64,000 nucleotides of DNA from Prorocentrum cordatum (lineage: Eukaryota > Sar > Dinophyceae > Prorocentrales > Prorocentraceae). The DNA lies in NCBI GenBank assembly GCA_963575745.1, contig CAUYUJ010017818.1, positions 159,607-223,606 of the forward strand, in the 5' to 3' direction. The notes under the pieces were generated by a model. It was given only the letters and a program-made list of their open reading frames with translations, did no database searches and was not told the origin of the DNA. Positions 19,545-64,000 of the stretch are shown in pieces (the stretch's first letter is position 1; every line of letters starts with the position of its first letter). The position numbers and the translations under genes were made by a program.

Positions 19545-20295
19545 GTGTGCACCACTCGCCATGTTCGAAGGTTGCTGGGGGGGGGGGGGAGCATAGTGCT
19601 GTCGTACGCATATCCAAACGGGACGTCGCAATTCCGTACGGGGGCTGCGATATGCGAAATTGTCGCCCTTTTCGAGGGATGCTGGGGCGGACAGCATAAT
19701 GGGTGCCGGCGGCCGATTCAAAGTAGACCTCGACGCCCCAGGGGGGCCGCGATCTGCAAAATGGTTGCCACTTTCGAGGGCTGCTGGCGGGTGGGGCAGC
19801 ATGGTGAGTGCCAGCGGCACGTTCAAATCAGACCTCGGCATCCGTCAGGGGGCTGCGAGGTGTGAATATGTCGCCGCTTTTGAGCGCTGTTCGGGGGGCC
19901 ATCGTAGTGGGTGCTGACGGCTGATTCAAATTAAACCTCGACGTCCTTGGGGGGCTGCGACGTGTGAAACTGTCGCCGTTTTCGAAGGCGTCTTTGGGGG
20001 GTAAACATGGCGGGTGCCTACGGCGGATTCAAATTTGACCTCGACATCTTTTGGGGGCTACGAAGTGTGACGCTGTCGCCACTGTCGAACGCTGCTAGGG
20101 GGCCAGCACAGTGTGTGCGTACGGCAGACTCAAATATCCCCAGGGGGAATGCGATTTGCGAAATTGTCGCCACATTCGATGGCTGCTGGGGCATAGTGGG
20201 TGCCCACGGCGGATTCCCATTAGCCCTCGACATTCCTGGGGGGGCTGTGAAGCACGAGGTTGCCGCCACTTTTGATGGCTGCTGGGGGCGGGGGG
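19545..20295 (+). repeat. Tandem repeat, ~100-bp unit, 7 copies
   Basis: Seven diverged units, 92 to 107 bp apart, each with ctgcgatntgcgaaattgtcgcc, then ttcgagggctgctgggg, then gggtgcctacggcggattcaaat, then agacctcgac. Anchor positions are near 19646, 19746, 19853, 19957, 20057, 20147 and 20245. In some units the + frame reads ICEIVATFEGCWGG and GGFKFDLDI, so the unit could once have been coding, but frames are not kept between units. A run of 13 G (19578) and other G runs accompany it. Confidence 0.75.
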
Positions 20296-30831: not shown

Positions 30832-30882
30832 GTGCCATCGAGGGCAAGAACGCGTTTGTCAAGTTTCTCGCACCCTGGTGAG
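30832..30882 (+). CDS. PDI-like gene, exon a: strand before the active site, ending in TGA G
   Basis: Preceded by a good pyrimidine tract and CAG (ctttgtttctttgtcattct, cgttcgaccag). Reads (x)GT, then AIEGKNAFVKFLAPW, then TGA at 30879-30881 and one G. The next intron begins gcgacg. N-A-F-V-K-F-x-A-P-W directly before C-G-H-C is the hallmark of PDI thioredoxin domains. A GT donor (GTGAGG at 30878) would break the frame with exon b, and a GA donor (gaggcg at 30880) would give W-C-H-C, one residue short of the CxxC spacing. Only the GC donor keeps both frame and spacing. Confidence 0.8.
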
Positions 30883-33800
30883 GCGACGCCCCCCGACCGA
30901 TTGCGGATTGTCGCCACCGATTCCATGACAGTTTGAGAGAGAAACGGCATTGATTTTTTCAGGATGCAGGAGGGGGGGAAGGAAGGATAAGAGAGGTTGG
31001 CATAAGGATCGAGGAGGGAGGCGCGATAATTGGTGAGGAGGGTGACCTGGCCATGGTGGGCAACCTGGTGAGTATTGGGCGTTCCCGCAGCGTTTCAAGA
31101 ATTTGCGGGGATGGCAGCGACGTCGGGCAATTTGATATGACGCCAGCGGTATTTCACGCATGTGACTCCAAGTGCACCCATTCCTCACGTCGTTTTGCTT
31201 TCAGCTTGGGCAGTATGGAAGTGCGGAGTGGGCGAAGGCGAGCGCAGGAATTCGCCGTCAGCTGATGCGATGCGAAATGTTACGTACCTCCGCCGCTCGC
31301 TTGTGTAATGCCAGGATGGGCACGTCCAGTTCGATTTTCATGCTCCGAGTGCCGCTGTCTTTTTCCACTCCCCGTTTCGAAGCTCCTTCCCCCATCCCAA
31401 TCCCCCTGAATCCACTTCCTACGCCCGGTCCCCCCCTCTTCTCCTCCCTGGTTGCAAATCTCGCCCCCGTCGCTCCCGGTTACCATCCCTTCTCTGTCGC
31501 GAGCGCGGAGAGCCACGTGGCGAGAGGTGGTGGAGGAGGTGGAGGAGGAGGAGGGACCAATGCGGAGGAGTGAAGGGAGGGGAGGAGGGGTGGAGGAGGA
31601 GAAGGACGGAGGAGAACGCAGGAGGGAGGATGAGGACGGGCGGCAACGATCGGCAACTTGGCGAGTTCTCGGCACACCCCCGCAGACGGCAACGGGAGGC
31701 GTGTGGCGAATCTTCGGCACGCTGACGCAGCGCACGAGGCGGGCAACGGGCGGGCAACGGGCGGCAGCGTGGCGCATCCGTCCCTACACGCGGCAACGGG
31801 CAGCAGCGTACTCCGCGAATGCCCAGCATACGCACAAGCGGCAACGGGTGGCAACAGGCGGCAGCGCGGCGAACCTTCGGCATACCCCCGCGGGTGGCAG
31901 CGGGCGGCAGCGCGGCGAGCCCTCGGCATCTCCACGGCGCGCGAGGCGGCAACGACGCGGCTACGAGGCGGCCACGGGTGGCAACGGGCGACAAGCGAAT
32001 CTTCGGCATACCACAGGCGACAGCGGGCGGCAATGCGGCGAATCGTCGGCGCAAGGAAGAAAGCCGGAGTATCAGCACTGTCTGGGGACACGGGGCCACC
32101 CTGCTTCAACAGCTGACCGAGGCCGCCTTGTCATTGGAGCCGTCACCTGGTGAGGCTGCGCAGTTGGGATGCGATGTCGAGTTGGAAAACCGATCCCAGC
32201 GCTCCGCATGATTGTTCGATGACCGAGGGCTCCACAGCCTCCACTACCCAAACAGCACCAGAGTGCTCCACAGCCTCCAAGCACTGCCCCTCCTCCCCTT
32301 GCTCCCAATATGCCTTCCTTGTGCCTGTCTGTATACTCCTGCCCTCGGGGACGAAGCGCTGTCCTGCTGAGCCGTTTCACGCAGTTTCGCACTCGCGGGG
32401 CCAGCCGTGTCCATACCGTCTCGCTCCCCCCGTCTAGCACCCGACGCTCGGGCCAGCAGCCGGCTCGGCCTCGCCAGCTTTCGGACGAGAACGACGCCGA
32501 CGGATGTGACGCGGTCAGTGCGCCGCTGGAGGAGACACCAGTCGGCGGCGAGCGAGGGGGGGAAGTGAGAAGGAGAAGGTCCTCTCTCGGAGCGTGAATT
32601 ACCTACCCCGGTTTCGCTTCCAGGCAAAACCAAGTCATACCGCGCGCCTCCTCGTCAAGCGGCCTGACCAGTACAGGCCGTAGTTTGGCATCGTTTGGTA
32701 TCTCTTGGAAGCGAGGGTGGTCAAAAGCGAGGTAGGTTTGTTTTCCCCCTACTCTCAGAAGGTGGCGGGGATTCTCAGATGCCCTCCGGACTTCTGAGAG
32801 GTGCTCTGCGTCTTCGGGGCAGGCTCAGGCAACTTCTGAGAAGGCCGGGCGACTTCCGAGCCTTCTGAGAAGGCCCGCCCCCTCTCACTTCCATCCTCGC
32901 TCGCCGACGATCCAAGAAAGTGATGGCAGTTGCGTGGTTGGCAGCGCCCAAGAAGGGAGGTATTGATGTGGATTCGGATGGGACCGTACTTCGCTGAACC
33001 CCACCTCAGGCTCAAGAAAGTGACGGGGGTTGCGCAGCTGGCTATTCTCTTGGATTCGTCCTCTGTCCTCCTCGTCACCCGTCGTCCTCCTCCTCTTTTT
33101 CCTCCTCCTCCTCTTCCTGCTCTCGACTCGACTCGAGCGGCGTTCCCAGAGAAGCTTCTGGGCACGTCGAATCGGAAGTTCATTGATATGCTTCTTGGAA
33201 CATCGATTCTAAGGTCAGGACGCTCACCCAAGATCGGAGTGCTACGTTCGTCGATTTGTGGCCTGCAGGGCGGCCTCTTGGGGGCCAATTGAAGGTGGCC
33301 TGAGGGGGGTAGTCATGTTTTGGAGCCGAATGATGCCTTACTACGTTGGACCCCCTGTGAGCTCACAAAGGCGACCCCAGCTTCGCAGTCGGCACCGCCT
33401 AGCAGGAGCCCGTGGGACGCAGGAGGACGTAGGAGGCAAGATGAGGTAGGCGCTAGGAAGAGGGAGGGTGCGGAGAAAGGAGGGGAGCAGTGGGCTCCTA
33501 GTCGAACAGATTGCCCAACCAACGGCGGGTTGAGAAATGCATCAAAGTAGAATAGGGGGCCACATGCGAACCCTACCCCTACCCCCCACGATTTCTGAGG
33601 GGTAGGGGTAGGATCCGCATGTGGCCCCCTGCAGAAAGAGCCTAGACGGTAGGACTCAGAACCAAGCGACGGATCACATCGGCGTTGGAGCCTTTTGGGT
33701 CGGACACTCGTCTGGGTCGTTGTCGGCAGCCCGACCATGTGACCATGTGCTCAGATTACAGTAAAACATATCGCGATGGCCACCCCGATTGAATCGAGTG

Positions 33801-36800
33801 TACAGCGACTCGAGTAGGCGTTCTGGCGTTCTAGAGTGTGGTCGAAACACCTCGTTTGAACTCAACGATGGCAGACCAACTAAACCGATTGGAATATCAT
33901 TACACCCTGCGACGTGGAGACCCGACACACCGTGCAAACATAGCATCCACGGTGTTACTACTTATACGTACCAGTTTTGCTCGAGGACTATAGCATGATT
34001 GGCATACGTTAGCAGTTGTACCCCCATATGCTAACTAGAGAAGCCATCTGTTGTTCACCGTGCCACCAAACGAGGTATGGACGACAGCTGGCATTACAAC
34101 TTGCACGCGGGATTCGAGGAGGGAAGCGAGGTGGAAGCAAAGTAAAGACGGAGAAAGGGGGCGTTCTTATGTCCAAGGGGGGGAAGGGGATCCCCCGGCG
34201 CCCAAGGCGGTAGGAAGAGCGGGGCTTCCTCTGTTTGTCGCCCCCCCCCCCCCTGTCGCCGTCGCCCTCATAGGTCTCCTCGTGTCGGAGGTTGATAGAC
34301 CTCCTACCTTGACACGTTGATCAGCGAATTGGCCGTTTTCGGTTCGCGAGAGGGCGCCGCGTCCGTCATTTTTGCGGGTCCAGGTCCGTCGGTTTCGGTC
34401 CTGGGCCGTTTTCATTTGAGGGTGGTTCACTACAGGGAGGTTTGTCCACCGCCGAGCGTGATCTCCATCTTCCGACAGCCGTCCCCTGCGCCTCCACATC
34501 CGTTCCGCTTCTGTTGCGAGTCTGCAGATTGCATGTCGCCACCTCCTCCGTGCGCCGCCGCGGAGGCCACTGCGCGAAGCTGAAGCCCGATTGGGACAAG
34601 CTGGCGAATGATTTCAAGAGTTCCAGGCCCGAGGAGAGGGAGCAGACGGAGGAGGAGGGGGGGTCAGACGGAGAGGAGGAGGAGGAGGAGGAGGAGGAGG
34701 AGGAGGAGGAGGAGGAGGAGGACGACGACGACGACATCGACGTTCAAGAGGACGGGGACGGCGACGAAGAGGAGCGAGGAGGACAGGGAATTCAAGGATG
34801 AGCAGGTCGGACAAGCTAGGTGCGCTCGCGCCTCCTCTGTCATCCGATCCCTCCCTCCAATCACTCCCATTGGTGCTGATATGTCTCTGTCCGCCGACGC
34901 GTGGCATAGCCTACCTGCGACTCACGGAACGACCAGCTCATGCTATGCACAATCAGAAGACAAGGGGAGCTGCGTGCACAGGAGGAGAAGGAGGAGGAGG
35001 AGGAGGAGGAGGTGGCGGGTGAGCAGGACACGCGGGGGACAAGGATGAGGACGAACAGCACCTGGAATTAAAGCGGAAGGATCGGGAGGGAGAGAGGACA
35101 AGGTAAAGGCGGAGGAGAGGAAATGAGTTGGCGACCACGATTGAGTAAGTTCCGTAGTCAGAAAAGTGGCCCGCGGTGGGGCGAGAGCAGCAGCAGCAGC
35201 AGGAATTCATGGACATGACGCAGGGGTACTACAATGAAGCAAGACTCAGATCCAGTTTCCTGGCATCGCTCGGACGTGTGCATTTTTCCTTCGGCGAGGA
35301 CCATCGAGGAGCATCCTTGATCATTTGGCGAAAAAACCACGCACGGAACGGAAAAAACACAGGGAATTGACGTCCGAGCGATGGCGAGTGTAGTGGCCCG
35401 CGCTTGGGCGAGAGCGCCGTTCTGAACGGCGACAGCAATGCGCCGATCCGAACATGAGGCCCACCACGCTGCAGCGGGAGCACCACAGTGAAACATCGAG
35501 AACGACCCGATTGTACAGCAACATATGACAGACAGGCCTCGGAACAAATTAGCGAACAGTCATGCCACATTCATGTGTCAACGGCTCCCCCTCCCCCCAA
35601 TGTTCAAAGTTGACGGTGGGTCTGATGAGATGCACTTCGACGGCAGTCTCCCCCGCGCGTGCCAACAGTGAGGTCGGGGGGGAGGGGGAGTGTTCAGTAA
35701 TTGTTTCCGGGAACATGTGCAATGCAATGTGCTAGAACAACCACGAGGAATGGGCGGGAGATTTGCTGGACAATTTCAAGGGAGGAGGGAGCGCAGTATT
35801 TATATTGTTTACCTGTGGAGAGGGGGAGTTCGCAGAGAGGAATAGGGCGAAGGGTAAACGGATAGGGGAGAGAAGAGTGAATGGGGGCATGGAGAGCGAA
35901 AGCACAGGGGGAATAAGTGCATCGACGCGAGAGATGGGATGAGCGACAAGCAGCAGAGCGCGCAAAAGGGGGCAAAAAACGAGTGCGTGAGGAAGACGGG
36001 GAGGGCGGGCTGGGGGCTTGAAGCAGGGGTTGGTGGGTAGAGGCTTGCCAGTCCAGACCGCCTGCTCTGCCAAATTGAGAAGGCCAGAGCCCTTCAGCCT
36101 CCTCTTGCTCGCTCCTCATTCCTGCTCCTCTCTCCTGCTCCCTCCGCTTCATCCCCTCATCACGCCATTTCCTTCCCATCGAAGGATTCCGATCGGAACG
36201 CGTTTGACAAGGAGTTTCTGCATTACCCGAAGTTTTACATTGGTTTTCAAATTCGTCCTTTTCTTCCCGCTAGTCATACTCCTCCTCACCCTCTCCACAT
36301 CCCCCCCTGCGCATTCCCCGTTATCCGACGATTTCCCCTCCTTGCACTCCCGCTTCTCTTCATCCCTTCGTGCTCTCTGCTCCTTCTCTCTTTCTCTCCG
36401 CCAGGGCACGTTGCCCGTGCGCAGCGCAAAGTTGCTCGGTCGATTGCAGCATGGGCGACGAAGGGCATTCGTCCTCTCCCCCGCAGTCCGCGCCCTCTTG
36501 CGCCACCCTCGTTGGCTTCCAAACGGTGCGGTGACCACACCGTGTGTGATTCGGGTCGACCGCACGGTTTTGGGACCGGCGATGGGGGCTTTCAGGGTCA
36601 CAAAATCGTGCGGTGACTGACCGTGCAGTGAGGTCGCTCGCGATTGCGAGGTCGCCGCACGGTCTGTCTTTGCACCGTTTCGGGCCCCCCCGCCCCCTCC
36701 AGCGGACAAGGCCAAGAGAGGAGGCCAGGCAGGCCTGGCGTCCTCCCCCATGTGCGGGCAAGATTCATGTCCATGTCCAGTGCCTCTTGGACTTTTTTGG

Positions 36801-39800
36801 AAGCGGCGCCACAAGGCCGAGGCGCACTGGATGTGGATAAAACTCGAGCCTCTAGGGGGCACACTTATCCATATCCAGTGCGCCTCGGGTTTCTTTGGAA
36901 GGGAGCCCGAAACTCCATACTGCAGCGGATATGGGCAGAAGTATTGCCCGCCTCATGCTGCCCCTCCCTGGCGTGAAGCAGGAGGAGCAGAAGGAGGAGG
37001 AGGAGGAGGAGGAGCAGGAGGAGGAGGAGGAGGAGGAGGAGGAGAAGGAGAAGGAGCAGGAGCAGGAGGAGGAGGAGGAGGAGGAGGAGGAGGAGGAGGA
37101 GGGCCGGCGGCGCATCGTGGAGCAGCCGCCGTCGGCGGCCGGCGGCGGGCTGAGCCCCCGGCGGCCGTTCATCACTTCCCTCCGCGGCGGCGCCGTCGCG
37201 CCCGGCGGCGCCTGGTGGTAAAACGACGCGAAGATCGGGACAAAATCGGATCGGGATAATTCGAAATCTCTGAGAATCGGCGGGTTTGGAGGATGTATTG
37301 GGCGCCGCGGCCGCTCCAGAGCGGTCCGGAACGCTCTGAGAGCGCTCCGGAACGCTTTGGAGCGATTTATCCCGATCTTAGCCATGTTTTAGGTGGAGCA
37401 TCGCGCCCCCAGCTGGCTCAGGAGCGAAGGAATCAGGAGGGAAAGAGACACACAGACACAATGAATCGTCGATTCCCAGGAACATGTGGGAAAATATGGG
37501 GAGTGGGGGGGAAGACAGAAGCCCAGAAGGTATACGAAAATAGGGGGAATCTTTTTATCTGTGTGTATTTATATTTGTGTGTCCTGGGGCTCCTTCATTC
37601 CCTCCGAGGCGGCGCCGTCGCGCCCGGCGGCGCCTGGTGGAGCATCGCGCCCCCAGCTGGCTCAGGAGCGAGAGAAGGACGTCCACGTGCACGAGAATCC
37701 ACGCTGGCTTCGAGAGTTCGCAGTGCGCTGGTGTTCGTACAACGCGGCCAGTCTCGCGGATCGAGGGGCCGTCTTCGTGTTCATAGCTGGGCGCGTGCGT
37801 CCTCTGTGGGCTCTCCGACGCTGGCGGCCCCCCGGCGGCGGGCGGCGCCCCCAGCGGCGGGGCGCCAGGACGGTCCTGGTCGCCGACGTGGACTGCACCG
37901 CCGAGGGCAAGTCACTGTGCAGCAAGCACGGCGGGGCGGCGGGGCGGCGGGGGGGCGAGGGAGGGGCCGACCACGGAGACGACGAGGCTGAAGAGGGCCT
38001 CCTCCTCCTCCTCCTCCTCCTCCTCCTCGACCTCCTCGCGAGGAAGATAAGCGTAAGAGTTTGAACCCTTGCGTGCCCCAGGGGGGTGGGGAGGCGAAGA
38101 GACTGTTTCCCGACTGTCAGGGGAAGAGACGGTACCGATGCCGCTGCCCTCGCCTCGTTCTCGCCGGTTTGGGCCAGGCCCTACTCGATGCCGCCGGATT
38201 CGCTTCGGAATTCAAGCCAAAACGCACTCCGGGAGAGGTCCGGGGAGTAGCGATATCGATACCTTTTGTTTTCCTCATGGGGGGTGACGAGGGTCCTAAC
38301 ATAGGCGCAAAAGGATCAACAAAAAGTGGACTGGGAGCCCGAGGCCGCCTGCTCCCGCAGCGGTCTGGCAGTCGTTTCGCCTGAGGCTTCTCCGTGGTCT
38401 AGTCAGGAAGTGCGCTCTCGCCTCCGTGCGGGCTACAATTGTGGCCCGGAGGCCTGCGATCTCAAACATACAGTGGGGTATGTGCGGTCGTGCTCCCACC
38501 GCTGTCTCCGTATAGCCGACCTCCAGCTCCTCGACCCGCTTCTTCACCGTTGCTTCGCTCTTAGGGCGTCTTTACCCTGTGGCGCGTAGTGGTCGTCCCC
38601 CCCCCCCCCCCCCTGTGGGGGTATCGCTAGCGAGAGTGGGCAGGGGCGCGACCCAGGGGGCTGGACCCCCCCAACACATGCCAGGGCTCGCGCGCATACT
38701 ATGGCGATCGCAGGGCACCCCCGCCTCGACGTGCCCCACCCCGCCCCATCGTTCACCACCCACCAAACCACCCCAACCCAACCCGAAGGTCTCGATTTGC
38801 CCTCCATTTCCAGTTGGGGGGGGTCGAGGAACATCGAGAAAACACATATGGAACCCGTACCCCCCCAAATCCGAAATTCGGATCTTCGGGTTGGGTTGGA
38901 GTGGTCTGGTAGGTAGTCAGTCGTTACTGATGCCCAGGGCCCCAACTGCCTTTTGCCCTTGGGTGGCGAGCGTCGCCGACCTTGGTAACATCTTCTCGAG
39001 GCGCTCGGGGCAGCTGGCCTTTGCACACATCGGGGAAAGAGCAATGGCATAAGCAGAAAGACTCGGAGGTCCGCGCGGATTGTTCGGATCGGCGCTGCAC
39101 CCCCCTCTGAGGCGCGCGGAGCGCGCCAGGGGCGGCGCCGCAGGCGCCGCCAGGGGGTCCAGCGCGGATCCGAGAAACCTGCGCGGACCTCCGAGTTTTT
39201 TAAATGTTTGTGTGATTGCTCGGTGTCTAACACGGGGAGGGGGGGTCTTGCCAGCATGGAACACATCCCTACCCCTATGCTGGGCACCTCCTCATCACGA
39301 GGCCAATCTTAGGGATTCCCTTATTTTTTGAGGGCGAATCCCTAAGATTGTCATCGCCTTTTGGCGTGTCAATCTTAGGGATAGGGATACGTTCGAGGCT
39401 GGTAAGATTGCTCGGTTTCTAACACAGGGAGGGGGGGTTCGGGGGGAGATAGATAGGAGGTAGCTGGCGGAGAGCAGAGGAGGGGTGGCGCAAGGAGGGC
39501 AGCCCTTCAAGCAGCAGGCCGCGCGGGGGGGGGCTTCCAGGGCGGCAAGGTGGCTGCTCGGGGGCCGCCCCGGTGGCGGCCTGCCTGTGCGCAGCCCCGT
39601 TGCCTTCTCCAAAGCCCCCCCCCTGTCGCCTTCTCAGGAGGTCGCCGCCCTCGCGCGGACCCTCGTCGCGCGCCGCCAGGGGAGGGCGGGGCCTGCGGGG
39701 GCAGCTGCGAATCGTGCCGTGTGCGCGCGACGGGCGGGGTATGGGATCCCAGGGCCCGTATTGTTCAACCGATCCCACCCCCATCCCCATCCCCATCCGG

Positions 39801-42800
39801 GGCCCCACCATCTCACCACCCCAGCTTCGGACACACCCCTGGGAGCCCGAAAGGAACGACACGTCTCTAAGTTGTCAGTCGATCGAGGAAACCAAACCAG
39901 GCTTACGACACGGCGCGAATGATCGGCAACCATGATCGCCAGGATTGTTGCGAACCCGTACTTTTCTTTTGATCTCCACAGGTGCTAGCCGTTTTTCATC
40001 CGAAGCGCTCTGGATACTTCATGGCGACCTTGGCACATAACATTGCGGCGCGAAGTGTGATTTGTTTTTCCCAAACCGTGCTTGCATGTAGGGCTTCCTC
40101 TTTCTTGTGAACGGACCTGGGTGTGGTTGTTGTTCTGGCGTCTGTGTATACAGTCGCCGTCGCGCCTCGCCGCCGCCCGTCGTCTAGGCCTGTCTGTTGG
40201 TCCGACAGTCATGTAGCCGACGCCGCCGCCTCGTCGCTGCTGCTTTTGGGCCTTGTTGTCGGTTGCCGCGCTTGTTGTCGCCATCGCCGCCCGCTTGCAT
40301 TGCATTGCACTGTCTTCTGTTTATTTGCATGGCTTGTCACTGCTTCGTGTTTAAACGCTTTGCAGTGTTTGCGTCGCATAACATCGATCCCACCACATCT
40401 ATTGCACAGCATATATTGTACAACACCAGCTGCACAACACATACCTATATGTTAGATGATATCGCGGGTCATGTGATCCATGCGTTGGATTAGATATACA
40501 TATACGCATGACTAAACATTGGTTGTCGATACACCGTTACATAACATTATGTACAACACGCGTATATACATACATACACACATACATTCATACATGCATA
40601 CATACACACATACACATACACATATACGCATGTATATATATATATATATGTATCATGTAATGGTGTACGTATACAAGCCATACATACATACAAACGTACG
40701 TACGTGCATGCATACATACATACATACACATTATGTATACATATACGCTGCCAGGGCGGGGGCCTCTGAGAGCCGTCCCAGAGGGGCCAAGCGCGGCCCT
40801 CACTAACCAAAATCTTGCCCAAGAGGCCCCAAGGACCGAATTCCATACTCTTCTCCAGGGTTTTCGATGGATTTTCACGCGTGCGCGTGTCCAGCTTGTT
40901 TGCAATCAGGAACGACCCCAAACGCCCGAGAGTACGCGCTTGGATGGCCCAGAGGGCCCTCAGACCTCCCATGAAACCGCCAACCAGCCCCTCAGACCTG
41001 CCCGACACGATCCAGGGAGCTCTCCTTGCCAAAATAGCGGCTCAGATGGCTGTGAGTCAAAAGTGGGCAGGTACGTAGCCAAGGGAGCCAGGACTCATGA
41101 ACAGAGGGCGCCTCGCGCTGGCCAGGCGGGCCTGGAGCCAAGCGGGCAGGTGCACTTGGGAGCAAGAGCAATCAAGGAACAAGCGGCTGGCGCAGTGGCG
41201 CGCCCGGCGGTCGAGCGGGCGCGTTTTGGCCTGCGATCAGGCCTCGAGCGGGCGCGCGGGGCCGCGCTTGGCGGGAGTCCCCGTCGCTTGCTGTGAGCTT
41301 CCTGGCAAGGTGCGCGCTGGGCAGCAGCGCCGGTGGCGCGATGTGCGCCACGAGCGCCACCAGCGAGCGAGGCACGCTCGGAGGGAAGGTCCCTGCCTGC
41401 ATCATGGCAGCAACATTGGGCGCGCCTGCAGCGAGCTTCTTCGCAGGTCTCCTGGCAGCCAAGCTGGCGGCGTGATGTGCGGCGCAAGGGAGCGGGCACG
41501 CCCGGAGTGGACATCCAGGCCAGAGCGCTGGGCCACGCGATGTGCCCGTCCCGCGAGCGTCTAAATCAGGAGGGGGAAAAAACACACAGACACAATTATT
41601 CGTCGATTCCCCAGAAAATATGGAAAAATATGGGAAGTGGGGGGGAAGACAGAAACCCAGAACATATGGGAAAATATGGAAATCCTTTATTTGTGTGTAT
41701 TTATTTGTGTGTCCTGGGGCCCCTTCACTAAAGGAGCCCCTGGACAGGTAAATGTTGGTCGTGCTGTGTGCGTTTGAAGCGAGCGGACACGCTCGAAGTG
41801 AGCTCCCTGGTCTGCTGTCGGCGAGCGGGTTCGCTTGGAGTGGTGGTCCGAGCGAGTTAGCTGACATCCACGCTGGCAACTTGATTCGCTCCGCAAGTGA
41901 GCGGGCACGCTCGGAGAGCCCGCATCAACGCCGGTCATGCGATGTTGGGGGTGAACACAAACAACACATTTGGCACACTTTGGGGGCCCTTTAGGGGCCC
42001 TTTGTTGCGGTGTGCACCTTTTTAGAAACGTCTCACGCTGCGACTGCGAGAGCGGTCCGTTGCGCACTGGGAATTGCGCGCGAAGCGTCTGACATTATCG
42101 GGCTAAGAGAGCAACGACTGAGCGCGTTCAAATCGAGCAGCATACCATACGTGAGGGGTTGCGCCTCCAATTGCCTCGTTTGGGAAACGCGCGTTCCTCC
42201 CTCCATTCGCGTCCCCCCATTGACTTTCGCCTGAGAAGCGAGCGGTCGCGCTTGGAGTGAGTCTCCTGGCGTTTGGCAAGTTTTCTAGTAAGAACGCCGG
42301 TATCTCGTTGTGGCCGTAATCCGGTGGTCACGCTCCGTATCAGTTTCCTGGCATCAGCGCTGTACACAATGGCTGTCGGACGCGAGCTGGCACGCGTTGC
42401 AAAGATGAGGGCGGAGGGACGGGGAGCGGGAGAGCAGGAGCAGGAGGACAACGAGGCCAAGGATGATGGTAATTAGGACGTGGATGGGAGCAGGGCGAGA
42501 AGGAGGAACACACGATGATGGCGAGGAGGCGCATGAGCAAGGGCTCCCCCGAGGGCGCGAAGTTATTCGCGCTTCGCGCTTCGCGGTCCTCGTTCCTTCT
42601 CCCCCCTCCTCCTCGTCCTCCTTTTCTCCCTTTGGGGGGGCGGCGCGAGAGCGCGAAGTTATTCGCGCTTCGCGCTTCGCGGAGCGCGAAGCGCGAAGTT
42701 GGGAGCCCTAGATGAGTAGGAGGAGGATGAGGGAGGAAGAAACAAACAAAAACGGCATGATGACGCATGCGCGGAGCGGAGGCGTGCAGGGCTATCCGAC

Positions 42801-44393
42801 CATCAAGGTCTTCAAGAAGGACGGCAGCCCCAAGGGGGAGGACTACAACGGCCCGCGAGAGTACAGCGGCCTCAAGAAGTTCGTCGAGGCAGGTGGAGGT
42901 GGAGGACGGCAAGGAGGTAACACTGATGAGGATGATGTGGACGACGAGAAGGCAGAGGACGAGCAGGCAAGGAATGACGATGGTACCGACGAGGAGGCCG
43001 TTTGAAGACTCCATCCAGGACGCTGGAGTAAGGGCACTGTGGTTCTGGAAGGGGCTCCAGGCCCCACAAGTTTTAAGTCGGGCCTGTCCCTCTACAGGAA
43101 GAATATTCCAAACTAGTCAAAAAATAGTCAGGGGAGGATTTGTTGAATATGTTTGGGTGGAACATGTTTGGAGTATTTTTTTATTTTTCGTCCAAAATCC
43201 ACATGTCGGGGGAAATGCCCGACCTAACACAAGTTCTCTCTGTGGTCTTTCTATCAACGCCTCTCGCAGTTGCGTCCGCAACCGGGGCCCCAAAGCCACT
43301 TCGCTCCTTGCTGAAGGTCCTTCCTGATTCAACTGCCGTGGCACCTGCGAGGGAACAGGGGACGAGGCGGGGAGGGAAGATATCGAAGACGCCCACGGCG
43401 AACCACCCCCGCCCCCTGCCTTTTGGAAGCGCCTACTTGGCCGAACGTTGGTCCGAAGTCTCGCCAAGCTATTTAGGCAACGCGCTCTCCCAGCCGGTGT
43501 GGAACACGTTGGTGGAACTTTGGGGGTAAGAAGAGGGAGAGGGAGCATGAGGAAGAGGATGAGGAGGAGGAGGAGGAGGAGACGGAGAACAAGGTGGAGG
43601 CCGATGAAGAGGCGACCTCTTGTGGGCCTCTCGTGGGCCTCTGAGGGCATCTTGGGGCCCCGAGGATTCGTTGAGGCCGCTTGAGCCGTCTGAGGGCTAT
43701 CTTGGCCCGTCGGGCGCTTTCGGATGTCATCCTGGTGGCTTCTTGCGGCGTGGTAGGGCCGTCTTGAGGGTCTCTTGAGCTGTCTTGAGGACCGGTTTGC
43801 CCGTCTTAGGGCCTTCCCGGGGGCCTCTGGGCCTTCTTGGGAATATTTTGGCATTTCGAACCGTCTTCGGCTGTCAGAAGCCCGAAAGGGTAGATGGCGA
43901 ACCGATGTCAAACATTTCAGGGGGGCTTCTGCGACCGTGTTATTTCATCCTCGAGCCATCTGAGACCCGCTTTGGGCTATCTTTGCCGTGTGGCGGACTT
44001 CTGCGGACCGTCGCGGAAACCATCTTGGGCCAGCTCAGGCGGGAAAGGCGGCGGGAGCGGGTTTTCACGAAGGCCATTGGGTCCCTATCGGAATGGCACA
44101 ATCATCTTTTGGTCATCTACCGAGCAAGCTTTGAGCAATCTTGACAGTGCAAGTGGGGCCTGCGGAGGGTGTTCTTGGACAGTTATCTCACACTACTGAA
44201 TCCGATACCCACCAACAGGACCACCCGTTGGGTGAGAAGGGGTGGAGGGTGGAAGGGACAGAACCAATTGCTGGACATGCGATGGGTGTGATGATGACGA
44301 TGCTGACGACGCGCCCTCGAGATAGCCACGACGCGTGAAGACGATGTCCAGTCAGACTGGAGCTGCGCGTCTGTCCAGCAGGTCCCGCACTCT

Positions 44394-44467
<74 letters not shown>

Positions 44468-47400
44468 TACGACCCCCGCGGGAGGCGGCCCCTCGGGGGG
44501 GGGGGGTCAAGAGGAGAAAAAGCACACAGACACAATTAATCGTCGATTCCCAAGAAAATATGCGAAAATATGGGAAGTGGGGGTGAAGACAAAACCTCCA
44601 AAAATATAAGAAAATATGGGGAAACCTGTTAGTTGTGTGTATTTATTTGTGTGTCCCAGGGCCCCTTCAGGGGGGTGCGGCGGTGCGAGGCCAACTTGGC
44701 CGGCCCGGAGTGCAGCCTGGAGGACAAGGAGGGCTGCTCCCCGGAGGAGCTCGCGATCCTCGAGGAGCCCACGCCGACGGCGCGGCCACGCGGTGGGCAC
44801 TCCCCGCTCGCTCGCTTTCTTATGTTGAGAGATTCGGATCTGGATTTACTCGTCGTGCGGGTTCCGTACCGCTTCCGTATTCGAAACACTCGCCGACGTG
44901 TGTGACCCAGGTACGATCAAGAAGCCATGTGGGAATAGTGAAGTCGGGTCGCGTCCCTCGGCACTTCCAGACTTCATCTGTGTCCCAATTCTTGTTGGTT
45001 GGTTAACCAGGGTCCGTCCCGAGGGCGCATAGCACGGCCGCGTTCAGCCGTGGCCACCACGAGGACACTGCGGCAGGAGGCCCAGGAGGGGACGCAACCG
45101 TCCAGAATCCTAGGACCCCCCAGGAGGCCCAGGAGGGGAGCACGGCGTCCAGTGGCCGAATCTTCTCGCCCCCCCCAGCGGCGACCGACGACGGCGAACG
45201 ACGACGACCACGGCGATTGACCGACCGACCGACTGACCAACGACGACGAACGACGACAAGGACGGACGCCGTCGCCAAGCTCTAGAAGACCGACCACGGC
45301 TGGCCGGAGTAGAATTCTAGATATCTGTACGTGGCAGCATGACCCGCACGGGCGCTCGAGTTGTCGGGGGCACGCGACCAATTAAAAAGCTAGAAAACGT
45401 GCACTGGATCAAATTCTGAAGTCTTTCCACCTCAGATTCGAGTAGGGGATCGACTACAGAATTGATTTACCCCAAAATTGGTTTTCTCGTCGAATCTGAG
45501 AAAATTTGCAGAAGTCTCAGTATATTGCTGAACATTCCAGGTCTTCGTCGTAGATTCGATGGAGAATCCATTTTGGGGTAAATCAATTCTGTAGTCGATC
45601 CCCTACTCGACAGGTCGGTGTTCGATGCAACCCCCTCCTCCCCCCCCCCGGGCTCCGGTCTCCCCCAGAGGGGGTGGGGGGGGCGGCCGCGGGCCAGCGT
45701 CAGCCGATCGCCAACATGGATGGAGGGGGCGTGGATCAGCGACGGGCCCGGTTTCCATGGGAGATCGCGGATCCCCGCCGCCGACCAAGGCGGCACCGGA
45801 TCGCGAATCCATGCCTGCGCGCCCCCGGCAGCGGCCGCGAGAAGCTGCAGAGCCCTCTGCCGCACCTCACGGGAGTTGGCGTGCTCCCTCTCGGTCGCAC
45901 GGGTGAGGCGGCTCTGTGCGGCGGGCTCGCGGTCGAATGCAACTCTTGGGAGGGTACAGGCAGCATCAACGCTGATCTGCTCTAATCTCCATCCCCCTTA
46001 GCCTTCTAGTTCCGTTCAGTCCGGCTCAATCTGATTGTAGTGGCCTCCGGCCAGTGCCGCCGATCCGGGGCGCTCCAGATTCGCGTCAAAATGGACGACG
46101 ACTGAGACGACGCTCCTCCTTTTCATCCTCCTTTTTCTTCCACTTCCTCCCTTGAAGGCATACTGGATGCTTCTGGGGGCTTCTTTGGTGCCTCGTGGGA
46201 GCCCTCTTGGGGCTCTCTTGGGAGGCATCTACTCTATTTGTGGGGGATGTTGCAACTTGTCCCTCTTGGGAGCCCTCTTGGAAGCTTCTTCGGGCGTCTT
46301 GGAAGATCCTTGGGCGGTATGGAGGCCAGCTTTGGCGACTTGGACCGATCGTTTGACGACTCGGGGCCCTCCTGGGGTCGTCTTGGGAGCCTATTGGGGT
46401 CCTCTTGGCCCGCGTTGGGGCTCTCCTGTGCCCGAAGGAGCCCCTCCCTGGAAAGAGTACATCCCTTCCCTCCTCGACCCTTCCCCAGCAAAGCCACCCT
46501 GGCACCCACCCCAGCATAGCTGAAGCTCAGGCCGCAGCTGTTGTAAACTCACACGCCGGATCGGCGGATTTAATAACCGACTGCCCCGGATGATAAAACA
46601 TACTCCCCCTTTATCGGGTATAGCCAGGACCCCAGGTAAGGGGACCCGGTTAGTGGTAGGACCCTGGAGCCCTTGAGTTGACGAAACCAGGTATGCTGTA
46701 GTTGGTGATTTTTTGGGTGACGGCAGTTCTGGTTAGTGGAACGGTGCGGGGGGCGTCCCCACTAAACCAGGTACCATTAAACCCAGTTCTGCCACCGCTC
46801 AACCTTAACCCCTTTTATTGTTCATCCCGGTTCCATAGGATTAAATTGTGGAGATGGGCGCGGAGGCCGAATTTGATAATCCAAGGTGGAAGTTGCGAAT
46901 CGAAGTTGCTAGCAGCTCATGTTGACTAGCAACAACAAAAACGCTGAGCATGGCCATGGTGGTCTCATCATATCTGCTCCCGCAATCACGAGCGTGTGGC
47001 AGGGCTGTGGGACTCTCACCAGTTCAGTTTTCCCAAGTCACGAACGTGCGGCAGGGCCATGGGATTCTCACTTTCTCATCCGTTCCCGAGTCAGAAACGT
47101 GTGGCAGGGCCATGGGGACCGATCGGATGTCGGTTTCACATGTGATTTTTCGAGCAGGCAGAACATTGGATGGAGCTAATTGCTTCTTAGCGCATTCCTC
47201 ACACGGTTCGTGGCCCTTCGTCCTCCTCCTCTACCCCCGCTACTGCCCAGGCCCGAGCTTCCCCGAGTCTCCGAGACTCCAAGCTTTCGGGCCTCTTCGA
47301 GGCGCCGAGCCATGTCGCCCCAGGGGCACCGATAGGGGGGTAGGCATTAAGGGACACATCGATCCCCAATCACCTTCCCCAGGAAAATCGTTGATTCTCC

Positions 47401-50400: not shown

Positions 50401-53400
50401 GGAGGTCTTTTGAGGCGTCTTGGGGGCCTCGTGGGCCGTCTGGAAACTATCGTGGGTGTCTCGGACGGATTGTTGGACGACTCGGAGCCCTCTTGGACCG
50501 TCTTGGGCGCCTCTTGGGGTCCACTTGGAGCGCTCTGGGGCGCCTGAAAGCCGCGCCCAGGAGGAACACCATCTCTGATTCGCACCGCCCTGGAACCTGC
50601 CAGGGTACTTCTCTTCGCGTGCGTTTCGCTATTTGCTTCGCCCGTCGCCATTCGGCCGCTAATTGTTGGGGCCTTCCTCACTCGTCCTCTGGGCCCCGTC
50701 CTGTGCGACTCTAGACACTCGGGCCTTCTTTGAGATCTGCGGTCTCAGTCGCCCGGAGCGCCAGCCTCGCGGTATCTGGCCTTCCCCCGCCCTGCCGCTC
50801 CTTGTTCTCCTCTGGCTCCTCATCTTCGAACGCGGAGGGTCGGTCCCGCGCAGAAGGGGGTTAGGCGGAGAGGGGGAGGGCTTCTTTGGAAGCACCCCTG
50901 TTTCTGAGAAGGCACGGGCCTGAATATAGATGTGAGGCCCGCGCCTTCCAAGAGGCAGCCTCCTGAGAAGCCTCCCCCCCTCCCCCATACCCCCGTGTGC
51001 GCGCCGCCGAGAGGAGTCGGAGAAGATGTCCGTGGCGGAGCGCCGGGAGAAGTTCAGCCAGATGGAGAAGGAGGTGCAGGAGCCAGCACGCAGGGGCCCA
51101 ATGGGGGGGGGATATCTGGGAGGCGGGCGGGCCGCCGACGTTGGCCGTTTTTTTTATCAGTGGCATTCGGTCGGGTATGTCCCCCTACAGGCGGATTTTG
51201 GGTGAAATATCATCAATACCCCAAACATATTCCCAAATAGTCAAACAATCAGAAAATCGTTCCCGTATTGTGCATTTTTGAATTTCCTCTTGTAGAGGGA
51301 CAGGCCCAAATTTCACAGTGGCAGGAGGGTGGCCAGGAGTCGGAGCCGGATCTGGATCCGAGGTGGCCCAGCATCGGTTCCGAGACGCAGGGAAAGCGAG
51401 CAGGTTCGCGGTTCCGGATGCGGAAAGGTTTCTTGCCTCTCTGGGAGCTGTGTTCGGGCTCTGGGACCGCGATGACGGATCCAGAGTGAAAATCTGCACC
51501 AGACGGATCCCAGAAGGGTTCCGGGGACCGATTTTGAGCGGACTTGGCCTCGTCCCCCCTCCTGACCTCCACGTATGGTTACGCCGGGGTGTTGCTTGCG
51601 ATCAGCGTCGTTGGGGCTTGGGGGGCGCCACGTTGCCCTCCTCGTCGGGCCTCGTCGGGGCGCGGTGGAGGACTCCGTCGAGGTCCTCGCCCGACTCCCA
51701 GGGGTGCGGGCTGCAAACCACACTGCTTGCCATCCGCGCCCGTCGGAGTCGCCGAGCGGAGGACGGGGCGGGGGAGGCGCGGGACGGCATGGGCGCGGCG
51801 GGGCGCACATGGCCATTCGGCTGGGGCTCGGAGCGGCGCGGCGGTGGCGGTCGTCGTCGTCGTCGCGCGTCGGGCGTCGGACGTCGGACGTCGACGTCGA
51901 CGTCGACGTCGGGACGCGGCCAACGGGCACGGGCGTGCGGTCGTGCCCGGCGTGGGGCGCGGTGCTTGGAGCACTCACCGCCGCCCGCCGCCAGTCGCTC
52001 GGGCGGAGGCCGCCAGGCTTACCAGCTCGAGACAGGTATTTGGCGAAGCGCCCCTCTTCTCCTCCTCCTCCTCCTCCTCCTCCTCCTCCTCGTCCTCCTC
52101 CTCGTCCTCCTCCTCGTCCTAGATGCCATACTGGTGCAAGCCTCTTCTTTCATTCTGGCATTTTGCTCTCTCACTTTTCCACGAGGAACGCGGGTCCTCA
52201 CGTTGATGGTTGCCTTTCTCGCTTACATCTTCTTGGGACCGACTCTGATGACAGCCGCGCAGCCCTCGGCCACGCCCCAGGCCACCCGTCTACGCGTCGC
52301 CCAGTATAATTCTCAAGCGCTGCCTCTGCATCGGGGGCTACGAAAGGTTTTGGACGGTCTAGACACCTGCCATGTGATAAGTCTTACTGGAACAAGGCAG
52401 GCGATGGCTCGGGCATCATTTGACGGCACGTTGAAGGTTCTATCGCCCCGTGTGGGCAAGTATGTCGTCTGGCAGTGGCCCACGTCGGCTACGAGAAAAC
52501 TTCGCAAGCAGGAGAGGAGCAAGAACACAGACGGGACGAACACGAGCACTGGATGCATGTTGGCCCTCGATGCGAAGAAGTTCCGGAAGCAAAGATTTCT
52601 GCAGGCCTGGTGTCCACCCGATCAGATCCAGGGACGTGGGGGAGCCATTCGATACCGCTGGTCGGGCCACTACGATTTCTGTTTTATTACCGCATATGGT
52701 ATGCTGTTGCCAAAGCCGGAAGCAGATCAAAAACACTGTCATGCTCTATTAGACTGGATTAGTAAGGTTCTCCCTCAGCTTCCAGCCATATGTACCCCGA
52801 TATTGATGATGGATGGTGATTTTCATTGTGGGCTTCAGAATGTGGGTGGGCAATGGGTACACATGCACAATACGAGCCAACAGGATGCGATAGGCCCTCG
52901 TGGGGCTGCCAAGGAGGATCCGCACGCACCGCGCTGGCGCATGATGTTGAACACACACCATATGTGTCTGGCAAACACGTACTTTAGGGAGGGATATGGG
53001 GCCACGTATTTCAGAGGCTCGACCATGTCAAGGAACGACTACATTGCTATTCCGAAAGCCATGATGGCCCAAGTTCAGACGTTACGTGTTTGGCGACGAA
53101 CTGGACGACTTTTACAACTCTCACATGCTAAAGGTAACGCAGATCACGCTCCCTTGGTGATGGATTTCATGACCCGCTCTTGGCATGAACCGAAGTCGGA
53201 CTCAAATTGCACATGGGATTATGACAGATATATGCAGGCTTGGCTGAAAGGTGGACCCCATATATGATGGCTTCATTCGGGATCTGGACGCATGGGCCGA
53301 TCACCCAGATACTATGACACAGACTCGTTTTCTGCAAGATTCTCTTGATGTCGATGGTTATTGGAACTTTCTTCAAGCTGGCCTACGAGAGCAGGCTGAG

Positions 53401-56400
53401 ATCTATTTCACTCGCCATCCTGGGCAGACTCGAAGAGGTGAGGACACCGGCACTGCCCGTCTACGCGAGAAATGCAAAGATGCTCGTGCACGACTTCAAG
53501 CAGCTGATCACGTTACCCAAGAGATGAGGGACACATGTATGTTATTTCAGTAATTCCTTCGCAGATTTCGACGGCGAGAACTTCGACGTATGCGAGACAC
53601 CTGGTCGATGGAGTTGGAGCGAGCCCAGCAGCAAAATGATTGGCATCAAGTGTGGGTTCTTTCACGTCTGATAGGTGGCACGCGACTGGGGCCCAAGAAG
53701 AGACGATTTCAACTGGCGGCGACATTCCCTCCCACAGTCGATGAGTGGATTCAGCATATGGGCCAGGAGGGGCCGAGCGGAGGTATGCAGGCTCGGGCCA
53801 TTAGTATTGGAAGTCACGAAGAAGCGCCCTGTATAATGGAGCAGGCGATGGCGATCCCACCCGACACCGCGGGGCGCACCGAGTACATCGCACAGCGAGC
53901 TGATCAACTTCAACGGCGACTACGATCTGCAGATGTAGCAGCAGGAATATCAGACTCAGTGGTCTCTGGCGGTGTCTTCTCAACAAAAATGACAGAGACG
54001 CGCGCCGATGCCTCCGAGATTACCCATCGAGCAGCGGAACAGGCACTCATCCAGCACGACACGCAGAACATGGATTTCGATGGCCGACCCTTTTATGTAC
54101 GAGCGCAGGAGGACTACCATGGTATCTTATATAGACTTCGAACAGCTAAAGCGCGACGTGCCGTACCACCGTAGTCAGTACCTCGAGAGGCCTGGCTTCT
54201 TGCCGTGGCGAAGCCGAAGCATTGTGAACGATCTGGTCCCTCTCAGCAGCGACTCCAACAGTTTCTTTATATTAGAAGACGGCTTCACATGCCGCAGATT
54301 TGGGCGGTTAGTTCTGGTTGCAGGGTGCAGAAAGGTAAAAACAAGGAGAAGTGCAAGGCCGAGCGCGTCGTTCACCTACTGGACCCGATCGGCAAAGCCT
54401 TCGCAGGACAATTGTGGCCACGACGCACAGAGCATGGCCCCGACAGCCCATCAGGCTTCAAACCCCGACGGCGGCGCGAGCAGACAATCCTGCAGGTGAA
54501 GATTGCTCGATGGCGCCTGGCTCAGCATCAACGTACCTGGGTGGCCCCGTTGTATGATCAGGCCAGCGCTCTCGCGTCCGTGGATCATGAGGCGCTAAAT
54601 GCTGTGGTACGCGCGGCACTCCCTCCTGGTGACGCCGAACTACTGCTGCAGAGACGCACGAGGGCCTTCTGCGTTCTACGAGCGGACTCAGGTGACTGGG
54701 CACTGATGTCACTTGGATGCGGGGACCTGCAGGGGGACGTGGCTGCTCCAGATAAATTCATCAATGTACTTGACCCACGTGTAGACAGATGGGCAGCCGC
54801 AACGGAGACGGAGGAGGATCGTAACTTTTTCCACGTGCTGGAACCGATAACTCAGACGCACATCAACTTCAGCCACGGGGCGTATGCGGACGACATGTTT
54901 CGCATGGTTCTGAGTGAGGACGCGGGGCAGGCGAGTTCCCGAGTGCAAGACTGGGACTAGGCACTTGCTGCGCACGTCAGCGAGCCGACGGGACTGCAAC
55001 AGAATCGAGATAGCAAAGGTCCTTTTCGAGCATGCGGTCGTGGATCCCACCAGAAAATGCAGCAGTTCTACAAACAACAGAACATCACCTTCGAGGGGAA
55101 CCCCATCATCTGTCTGAGGCACCTGGGAGCATGGCACCATTTCGACGGCCACGAGACCTGGGAGCTCAAAAAACTTCAGGATGCGGCCCGTCTTGGGTGG
55201 AACGCCATGGGGAAGTTCTGGACTAGTCGTGCGCCTCGGAAAGTAAAAAAGACTGTTCCAGGGGATGGTCGTCAACGCGTATCTCTCGGGTGGGGAGACT
55301 TGGCCCCTGTCTGATCGGGCGGCAGAACATATTGATGGCTTTATTGCACAGCACGCGCGTGTACTTCTGATGGGGGAGGGGACTAACAAGCAGAGCGGCG
55401 AGCGGGGGAACGTCACGTATTGCCGCACCATATCTAACTATGAAGTAAGACGACGACTCCAGCTATATACTACTCAGAGTATCTTGAGATATCGGAGACT
55501 TAGATGGATACACCATATGGCACGTTTTCCTCGGGATCATCGCGTGCTGCTAGGTGTGCTTACGGGCGCAGTGAACGGCAAGAATCAGCTGGCGGGGCGG
55601 GGGAAACCTCAACATAGATGTAATCCGTGGCTTAAGCAGTTCGGAGCAGATCTTAATGAACTTGGTCGACATCATAGGCCGGCCCAGGACGCCCTTCGTG
55701 CTCGTGGTTGGTTTTCGATTTTCGAGGATCTTGAGACTTTCGCCCCTCCTGAAGATATCATGGACTTTGGAGCTCCTCCTCAGGCCTCATCTTTGCCTGC
55801 GTTGCCAAGTTCGGGGTCGCGTCTGTTCAAGTGTGAGGTTGTCGTCGCTGTGCACATTCTTATGATACCATAAAACAGCTACGTGTTCATGAATATCGCG
55901 CACATGGGATAAGCAATGACTATAGACGTGCCCCCATCACGAATCAATGCCCATGGTGCTCGAGAGTATTTGCCAACATCACAAACGCTCGTCTTCGCAG
56001 TCAGGCTCGCGGGAAGAAGATCCCCCCAGCTTGTGCTAAGAGACCTGGCCCACCGTCGGGATTTCTTTCGGCTCTGGATCTTCCGACAGATATCACGTGC
56101 CCCTTCTGCAACACCCGTTTGATACCCTTGAGAGTGCACATCGTCATATTCGCACACAATTTCTCGGCCAAGAGAGCGATGGGAGGGACGGGGATGGAGC
56201 AGCTGGCGACAGCAACGCAGATGGAGGGCGACTGGGCGAGGAATACCCGCCGCGCTGTGGGCAGCGCAGACAACGATCAGCTCAAGCAGCTGGCGATAGC
56301 GACGGCGAAGACGGTGGTGGGCATGGGCGCGATGCAGCGCAGACTCCAGGGCTGCCTGGAGACGACGGCGCTGGCGCGAGAAGCTCATCCACACTTGAAG

Positions 56401-59400
56401 GGCCTTCAGGACACGGGCAAGTCTTACGACGCAGAGCGCAAGGCCTTCAAGGAAGCGAACAAGTACGAATATATGAAGAAGATGACGCCGAGTCACGAGC
56501 GCTGCTGGATAGCTTTGATCAGTATGATTGCAAAAGGCGAGAGTGTGCCGAAAGAGAAGAAGACGCAGCTCCTAGTGTACTCACAGAAGGTGTCGAGTGT
56601 TTCGGGCCAAATGCTGACATGCATGCAGAAAAGGTGCCATCGCCAGAAAGCTTGGTCGGAGGATCGCTGGAGGATCAACCTGATGGTGGTGCCAGAGCTG
56701 AGGGCGGTGCAGATGGAGGCGATGGCAGCTATCGGGGCGAAGCCGCAAGTGGAGGTGAAAGCGGGCGCCCCAGCTCGCAATCCGAATGTGCGCTCGGTGG
56801 TCAGCACGCTGGTGGAAATGGGGGAGTATACGGCGGCGAACCAGGAGGGATGAGGCCGCCCGCTCATGAGCCGCCTGCCGCCGCTGCCCTTCTTTTCTCC
56901 TCCTCCTCCTCCTCCCCCTCCCCCTCCCCCCCTGGTACTAGTTCGAATGAGGTTTCAGACAGGCCCGATCTCTTTGAGTTTTCCTCTCGGGATGGTTTCA
57001 AGGGCACGACTTAAAAGTACTGGTTTTCGGGACCGAAGGTGACTCCGATTATGATCAGAGTGCCCCGCTGTCCAGTGGTGGCACGGTTGCGCGCCTAGAG
57101 GCCATCCAGTGACAGTATTGGGTGCCAGTGCTCCGCCGTGCTCCCTTGAAGTCCTGACTGAGAGTTTTTGCACGTTGGGAGACAGCGGTCTCTTGAAGTT
57201 GCAAATTTCGAGGCCGTTTGCACCCCGCGACCATAGGGCCCAGCACGCGCCACTCTGAGCTTAGTTCACTATTCGGCACGCAGGGGACGCAATGGGGTAG
57301 AATAGAATAGAATATTCATCGTCCTCCTCCTCCTGGGCACCGCAAGGGATTTTGCAAATCGTACCCAACGGGCGATTCGACGTTGGCCTCCTTATGCGGA
57401 TGTCCTGTCCTGTCCTGTCCTCTTCTTCTTCCTCCTCCTTCTCGCTCCTCCTCCTCCTCCTCGCTCCTCGCTCCTCGCTCCGCATCATCATCACAATCCT
57501 CATCCTCATCCTCATCCTCGTCCTTCTCCTCCTGCCCACCCGGCCACTGCCCTCTGAGAAGGCCTGGCCCAGTGCCGATGGATGTCGTTGATTGGCGAAG
57601 CGTCCTGGCTTGTCTGTATATGCCCACCGAAGAGTGTTCTGATAACCTCTTTGCACGACATGCTCTTCGAACATGTCTGGCTTAGGCTGCTTTGTTTTCA
57701 TACATCGGTTCGCATGACATGTGGTTTATTATTCAAGCATGCTCTGGTTCTAGAAGCATTTCGTGGCAGGCCTACAGGAATGCCGGGACCTGCCGTCCCT
57801 GCTCGAGTCTGGCAGCGCCTTCGGTGTTGATCTTGAGGATTGCCTCGGCTTCTGAGGGCACACCCCTCAAACCGTATTCCTCTGAGCTTGCCGATCTTAG
57901 GGATAGGGTCGGGGACCAAGCAGCTACATCAGCACAACTCTGGTTCCGAGAGAAGAATCCCATGGGGACAGTAAAATGTTTGGGGTCCTGGGAGGTAAAT
58001 ACATTACAGTCAACCATGACAGTAAGGATGGGACAACTTTCCAAGGCTATCCTTGCATCCTTGCCCCTTCGGTATTCGACATCCTTCGGCATTCTGCTGT
58101 GCTCCGCACGGGAAACGTCAACATGGCATTCCAAGGCCCTTGCATCCTTACCGCGCATCCTTACTATTCTGGTCGAGTGTATTTCCTCGAGATATCGATG
58201 TTGGGATGTCTGGATCGGTGTTTAATGACCTCCAAGGTGATCTCCGAAAGACTTCCCAGAGGGCCTGTTTCTGGAGTTGGATGATCAGCCGCCAGGGGGC
58301 CCCAGCGCCGATCGGAGGAAACCGCGCGGACCTCCGAGTTTTTCTATTTCTGTCACTGTTGTTTCCCTCTGGGTGACGCGCGGCGGGTATCCTGGACGTC
58401 GTCCTGGCGGAGAGGTGAGGGGTCCCCGGGGCGAAGCAGGAGGAGCTGGCCGGGTTTTGCGAGGGCAGTCCCGGGTCCATCTCGATCCGACCGGCGCGAA
58501 TGTCGGGTTTGGGCAGCCCGATCCGATTCGACTCCACGAGCCTCGGCCACGCGCAGAAGGGGTGTACATAGGGGGCCACATGCGAACCCTGCCCCTACCC
58601 TCCACGATTTCTGAGGGGGAGGGTGGGGTTCACTTCGTTCGGGAGCTCCCGAGCGGAGTGACCCCCCCCCTCAGAAATCGTGGGGGGTAGGGGTAGGGTT
58701 CGCATGTGGCCCCCTATGTATAGGGAGAGGAGGGAGGGGTTCTGAGAAGCACCCCATCTTCTCAGAAGGCGCGAGCTTTAACTGCAGCTGTCAGGCCGTG
58801 GCCTTCGAAGACGCAGCCTCCATCTATTAGCAGCCCTCCCCCATCCCTGCACCCCCTTTGTGCGCGCCGCCACGTCGATTCCGGCCGGTGCGATCCGAGT
58901 CGGCCCTTCGACGCCACGAGCCGGTGCGGCCCGCTGCCTGCACGGCGCTAATTATTGGGAAGCCTGGCGCGACCGATCTGCTGCGATGTCGGTTCCGTGC
59001 CGCTGCAGTGCGTTGCAGCGCAGATTTCGATGCTGTCCGATGTCCCGGTTCGGTGCCGACTGAGCCGTCGTGCCATGCCTCCATCGGGGGCGGAAAAGAG
59101 GGGGGTGATGACTAGGGGGGGGGGATGTCATGGCGTGGGCCATGATATTTCCCCAGATCTCGTGGCGCCTCTTCTGATTTCACTACGTCCCTGGCCCCCC
59201 CCGCTGGGCCGCGCACGTGCCGCCGGTCATGATTTGCACCCCCCCCTCTTGGACACCCCCCTCCTGGCCGCTCCCGAGTCGTGCCAGGCCTCCATGGTGG
59301 GGTCGGAGGGAGGTGGGGTCGGCAAATTCCGCCGCACCGGTGCGGCTCGATGTTTACCAGCCTCGAACGTATCCCTATCCCTAAGATTGACACGCCAAAA

Positions 59401-63944: not shown

Positions 63945-64000
63945 AGGAGGAGGAGGAGGAGGAGGAGGAGGAGGAGGAGGAGGAGGAGGAGGAGGAGGAA
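63945..64000. repeat. (GAG)n microsatellite at right window edge
   Basis: About 18 GAG triplets, cut by the end of the window. Confidence 0.9.

Follow-up and report, generated by a model that had tools for sequence, protein, structure and literature searches.

Analysis of a 64,000-nucleotide stretch of the Prorocentrum cordatum genome (the window; contig C16969, positions 159607-223606) revealed a gene for a predicted ER-type protein disulfide isomerase (PDI) with a single thioredoxin domain and a PDIA6-like C-terminal domain. An in-frame UGA at the first active-site position of this enzyme is predicted to encode selenocysteine (Sec), giving W-U-G-H-C, and we put the probability of this reading at about 0.92. 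The first-pass annotation had proposed a selenoprotein here, and the proposal gained support from paralogues, from Cys/Sec exchange, from relatives whose predicted sequences start past the site, from purifying selection, from tRNA-Sec genes in the genome, and from a splice junction that conforms to the rules.

The genome searched comprised 4,128,499,153 bases in 21,875 contigs; the P. cordatum CCMP1329 genome has been described as 4.15 Gb in 22,724 scaffolds, with a GC content of 59.7% and a mean intron length of 4709 bp (PMC10666404). The GC content of the window, taken in 2-kb steps, was 54 to 69%. Seven exons of the single-thioredoxin, PDIA6-like protein were placed on the + strand between 30832 and 63253, with boundaries set from the frame, the match to relatives, and the GT/GC/GA-AG rule. 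Exon a (30832-30882) follows the acceptor ccag/G (slashes mark exon boundaries), encodes (G)AIEGKNAFVKFLAPW-U-(G), the first half of the thioredoxin active site, and ends at the GC donor TGAG/gcgacg. Exon b (34566-34626; (G)HCAKLKPDWDKLANDFKSS) lies between the acceptor ggag/GCC and the GC donor CCAG/gcccga. Direct reading placed the predicted selenocysteine codon, a TGA where the first active-site Cys would be, at 30879-30881 in exon a and the codon of the second active-site Cys, TGC, at 34571-34573 in exon b, exactly where both had been reported. Exons c (37869-37930; TVLVADVDCTAEGKSLCSKH) and d (42782-42888; from GVQGYPTIK, which holds the cis-Pro, to LKKFVE) end at GC donors, and exons e (44690-44764; ANLAGPECSLEDKEGCSPEELAILE) and f (51014-51079; ESEKMSVAERREKFSQMEKEVQ) at GA donors. 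Exon g (63212-63253; DKKKEAKKLEKEAK) is the last exon seen on this contig and ends at a GC donor, only its donor side being known. The introns from a-b to f-g measured 3683, 3242, 4851, 1801, 6249, and 12132 bases. When exons a-g were joined, the frame was open with the TGA at 30879-30881 as its sole stop codon; the remaining domain codons were intact over the seven exons, including the second Cys and the cis-Pro of GYPTIK in exon d, as the first-pass annotation had described them. No convincing candidate for an N-terminal exon was found in the 64-kb window. The 12-kb f-g intron also contains two + strand ORFs of 649 aa (51318-53267) and 305 aa (56097-57014), neither of which had a Pfam match at E 0.01.

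The 3' UTR lies outside the window, as anticipated, and the contig terminates at window position 64000. Of the 111 residues of exons c-g, 110 agree with the database protein P0008, and P0008 from residue 140 onward mapped to a second contig, C13652, at 129627, 132780, 141442, 142970, and 144167, with further matches, located as places only, at 154485 and 159465; residues 112-139 were not located in the genome search. We infer that the gene continues from exon g onto C13652 (L049-L051, L053, L055) and that the two contigs hold one gene, whose C13652 part ends with DGTPIVEEEL followed by TAG. The first C13652 exon sits 129 kb into its contig, and the two parts would therefore be separated either by a break in the assembly or by a very long intron. 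No second copy of either gene part at >51% identity was present among the best candidates scored.

From exon a onward, the product comprises about 318 residues and ends in EEEL; a charged linker connects its thioredoxin domain to the PDIA6-type domain at the C-terminus. The joined exons a-e matched PF00085 with an E value of 4e-22 (Cys written at the TGA). P0008 matched PF24541 with 30.8 bits against a cut-off of 27, the matching exons being on C13652, and a phmmer search against PDB matched chain A of 8cpq, named Protein disulfide-isomerase A6, with an E value of 1.4e-27.

The exon ends agreed with the first-pass annotation: exon a closes with GCACCCTGGTGAG/gcgacg at 30882, and exon b opens with gcggag/GCCACTGC from 34566. 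The join was likewise in frame as claimed, reading AIEGKNAFVKFLAPW, the TGA, and GHCAKLKPDWDKLANDFK, and open through exons c-g; it corresponds to a GC-AG intron (TGAG/gcgacg...gcggag/GCC) and leaves W-TGA-G-H-C. Ten other donors were placed in the gene (those of exons b-g in the window and four on C13652): six GC (exons b, c, d, and g and the exons at 132780 and 142970), four GA (exons e and f and the exons at 129627 and 141442), and no GT, with G as the last exon base in 10/10. The exon at 144167 may end at GT and was left out of this count. Reported donor frequencies in P. cordatum are 51.4% GC, 23.8% GA, and 24.7% GT, with 79.7% AGG acceptors (PMC10666404). Judged by its bases, the a/b junction fits the splice rules of both the gene and the species.

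Other ways of joining exons a and b were also considered. A five-base micro-exon restoring the Cys through TGC or TGT, which the first-pass annotation had raised, is absent from the a-b intron, where none of the six + strand GTGYG words is directly preceded by AG. The GT donor CTG/GTGAGG gave no usable product with the exon b acceptor because the frame shifts. Pairing of GT/GC/GA donors near the end of exon a with AG acceptors near the start of exon b produced seven in-frame combinations, two of which escape the TGA without another stop: TGGT/gagg with ggag/GCC, giving W-C-H-C at near-normal length, and one with a 15-residue longer insert. An introner origin of the a-b intron was rejected, the longest exact inverted match in its 40-nt ends being 5 nt only; inverted matches of introners are taken as 8-20 nt in the text of PMC10666404. 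The ends of this intron carry the direct repeat GAGGC.

Two database searches returned 607 and 2255 matches, and the best 120 of each comprised 160 different proteins, known as predicted proteins whose nucleotides were seen only indirectly. Among the matches listed, 122 belonged to the PDIA6-type class, of which 115 start after the site and the other 7 have Cys there in a full-length sequence; the single-thioredoxin class had 38 members among those listed, with Cys in 16, Trp in 11, Gly in 1, and no site in 10. Homologues with Cys at the site, as sought for Cys/Sec exchange, were present in both classes, and Cys was also found in the genome itself, at three sites in two loci (two in L041, one in L045). 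The starting points of the 115 predicted proteins were concentrated at 6 or 7 residues past the site (76 proteins), the rest being 10 to 51 residues past it. The predicted ORF of P0008 begins at VDCT, which is the first ATG/GTG/TTG past the TGA in the sequence of the window, and the Noctiluca scintillans protein P0111 also starts past the site. The seven full-length PDIA6-type relatives are 329-350 aa long, and most of them show, by eye, a hydrophobic leader at the start. In a quick maximum-likelihood tree, these seven Cys forms were nested among forms starting past the site, with three changes, at least two of which were forced by starred branches. This nesting fits repeated Sec-to-Cys exchange.

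Twelve other loci in the genome carry an uninterrupted TGG-TGA-GGN-CAY-TGC. A genome search with a thioredoxin model gave at least 75 matches, at least 12 of them with one TGA and, among those counted, none with TAA or TAG; 10 of 12 TGA-holding matches were WUGHC and 2 were WUPPC, and W-TGA-GHC was uninterrupted at 10 loci from this search. The search with P0008 yielded 24 loci (L029-L052), and the motif was found in the fetched flanks of 14, with TGA in 12 (the 10 already found plus L034 and L037, both exon-sized matches) and Cys in 2 (L041 and L045). Four of the 10 loci without the motif are exons of the window's gene, and in the 6 others the active-site exon was not seen in the fetched flanks. 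The first-pass annotation had judged it unlikely that a stop would fall by chance on just this codon, and the data agree: because TGA recurs at 12 other loci and the thioredoxin matches counted hold no TAA or TAG, its position is more than chance would give.

Four pairs drawn from 7 of the 12 loci were used to estimate dN/dS. The values after the TGA were 0.059 (L011/L012), 0.138 (L013/L021), 0.100 (L014/L016), and 0.176 (L013/L015), and these estimates demonstrate purifying selection after the TGA in the paralogues. Before the TGA, where the ends are short and partly non-homologous, the values in the same pair order were 0.086, not computable (dS saturated), 0.359, and 0.342. When the TGA was passed over, the reading of 5 of 10 paralogues ended in the -EL end of the family followed by TAA or TAG, which is weak support, given the script's way of reading, against UGA being read as another amino acid. 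Two further loci, L017:3904 (+) and L019:3907 (-), are thioredoxin-type genes with W-TGA-P-P-C and apparently encode Sec-containing thioredoxins.

A search for tRNA-Sec, one of the checks that the first-pass annotation had named, revealed two RF01852 matches over the cut-off, at L026:1501-1586 (64.4 bits) and L027:1501-1585 (59.7 bits), in which the loop was read as a UCA anticodon; the cut-off is also passed by 5 of 14 control genomes. ARAGORN in bacterial mode listed neither match.

The proposed search downstream of the window succeeded for the end of the gene, found on C13652 (EEEL, TAG), but not for the SECIS: in the 2.2 kb past the TAG, the best pattern score was 35.4, compared with a control 95th percentile of 35.6 and a maximum of 40.6 (62 windows), and two stricter pattern scans past the stop found none. 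An intron in the 3' UTR could conceal the SECIS of this gene. The patterns, in four versions, were home-made rather than those of SECISearch. With the last version, L012 scored 54 and was the only one of ten paralogues above control; L011 reached 34.8, a value inside the control range, and the remaining eight, with scores of 24 to 29.2, did not exceed the control median of 29.4. The L011 score is not independent because this version was loosened after the L011 island had been missed. Under the first version, L012 scored 17.5, and 0 of 74 control windows reached 12 or more. BLAST comparison of the 2.5 kb past the Sec codon in L011 and L012 revealed, past the coding part, one similar stretch of about 110 bases with 78% identity (L011:4944-5041, L012:4844-4960). 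Eukaryotic SECIS elements have a TGAC facing GGA between a lower and an upper stem. In the fold of each island, TGAC and GGA likewise lie opposite each other, flanked by a lower stem of six pairs and an upper one of seven to nine. The L012 island is a strong SECIS candidate and is conserved in L011. An Rfam scan of five paralogue loci gave chance-like matches with no SECIS listed, and the common fold of the L013 and L021 3' regions had no SECIS-like form. Beyond the stop, the 3' flanks of L011, L013, and L022 contain similar inverted-repeat-like elements, which in L011 comprise GCGGATTTCTTGGAT and its complement.

Splicing could in principle remove the TGA altogether. Use of the GA donor three bases upstream (TGGT/gagg) would give the mRNA TGG TGC CAC TGC, encoding W-C-H-C; this product stays in frame, and GA donors are in use at 4 of the 10 other donors of the gene and in the species (PMC10666404). 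However, this donor is preceded by T, compared with G in 10/10 others, and W-C-H-C loses the Gly of CGHC. The uninterrupted TGA at 12 other loci and the start of P0008 only past the TGA also argue against such splicing, which we regard as very improbable. GA and GC donors are both used elsewhere in the gene, and the choice between the two, three bases apart, might switch one enzyme between its Cys and Sec forms (W-C-H-C versus W-U-G-H-C), perhaps tied to selenium supply; we give this idea similarly little credence.

The TGA could instead be a nonsense mutation, in either a pseudogene copy or a gene for a truncated protein starting past it, which would agree with a SECIS score not above control and with the starting points of most predicted relatives (115 of the 122 PDIA6-type proteins listed). 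Such an explanation appears extremely unlikely, however, when set against the intact state of the other codons of the seven exons, the near-identical spliced sequence P0008 in public data, the recurrence of the TGA at 12 other loci, with dN/dS values past it of 0.06-0.18 (4 pairs), and the nested position in the tree of forms that have Cys here. Insertion of another amino acid, through general reassignment of UGA or read-through without selenium, seems just as implausible. Trp occupies the site in 11 of the 38 listed single-thioredoxin relatives, perhaps through a gene caller's TGA-as-Trp, but the TGAs of the thioredoxin matches fall at redox Cys positions (10 W-TGA-GHC, 2 W-TGA-PPC) and not at random codons, and the genome has tRNA-Sec genes. 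The endings of 5 of 10 paralogues (-EL, then TAA or TAG) and the TAG of the window's gene point the same way, although weakly.

If the UGA is read as selenocysteine, splicing of the 3.7-kb GC-AG intron would join TGAG to GCCACTGC, the mature mRNA would keep the TGA, a SECIS would sit in its 3' UTR, and Sec would be inserted at the UGA. By analogy with PDI chemistry and with the UGHC of the algal protein EhSEP2, the enzyme would then exchange disulfides in the secretory pathway, with the selenolate as the attacking group and the second Cys as the resolving one.

P5 has two catalytic thioredoxin domains and ends in KDEL. The window's gene shares the C-terminal thioredoxin-like domain of PDIA6/P5 (PF24541; PDB 8cpq, 9wzl), whereas it has one catalytic thioredoxin domain in the joined exons, as have the seven full-length relatives (by eye; the N-terminal exon of the gene was not found), the predicted Sec for the first Cys, and the end EEEL. 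EhSEP2 of Emiliania huxleyi has been described as PDI-like, with UGHC, and is among the 75Se-labelled proteins (PMC6254913). Going by that description, both proteins have one thioredoxin domain with UGHC at the PDI active site, its Sec being predicted for the window's gene, which differs in its PDIA6-like C-terminal domain and its kilobase GC/GA-AG introns. Algal Sec-PDI groups a-e are described in PMC7539508; of these, PDI_a to PDI_d are similar in having one Sec in a PDI-like thioredoxin domain and Cys homologues in other algae. By sequence, the window's gene falls within a type of selenoprotein already known from algae, and the case is less remarkable because the UGHC-containing EhSEP2 had already been described.

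The combination of Sec with a PDIA6-type architecture, the occurrence of this combination in many database relatives, and the intron one base past the Sec codon may be new; a dinoflagellate selenoprotein of the PDIA6 type was not reported in the open-licence papers searched, taken without supplements. The gene adds this architecture to the Sec-PDIs. Together with the 12 other loci, it points to a large family in one dinoflagellate-like genome, which is relevant to the selenium requirement of algae that form blooms. Automatic annotation will miss a Sec codon one base from a kilobase non-canonical intron, since 115 of the 122 listed PDIA6-type relatives are predicted without the first half of the active site.

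Tandem arrays were observed in the window at 1617-2197 and 19640-20093, their repeat units being 28/53/81, 11/64, and about 103 bases long. By eye, the pre-acceptor ends of two introns of the PDI gene (window 44600-44690 and L055:200-310) are very similar (AAAATATGGGGAA, TTGTGTGTATTTATTTGTGTGT, GGGCCCCTTCA) and look as if they belong to one introner-like family.
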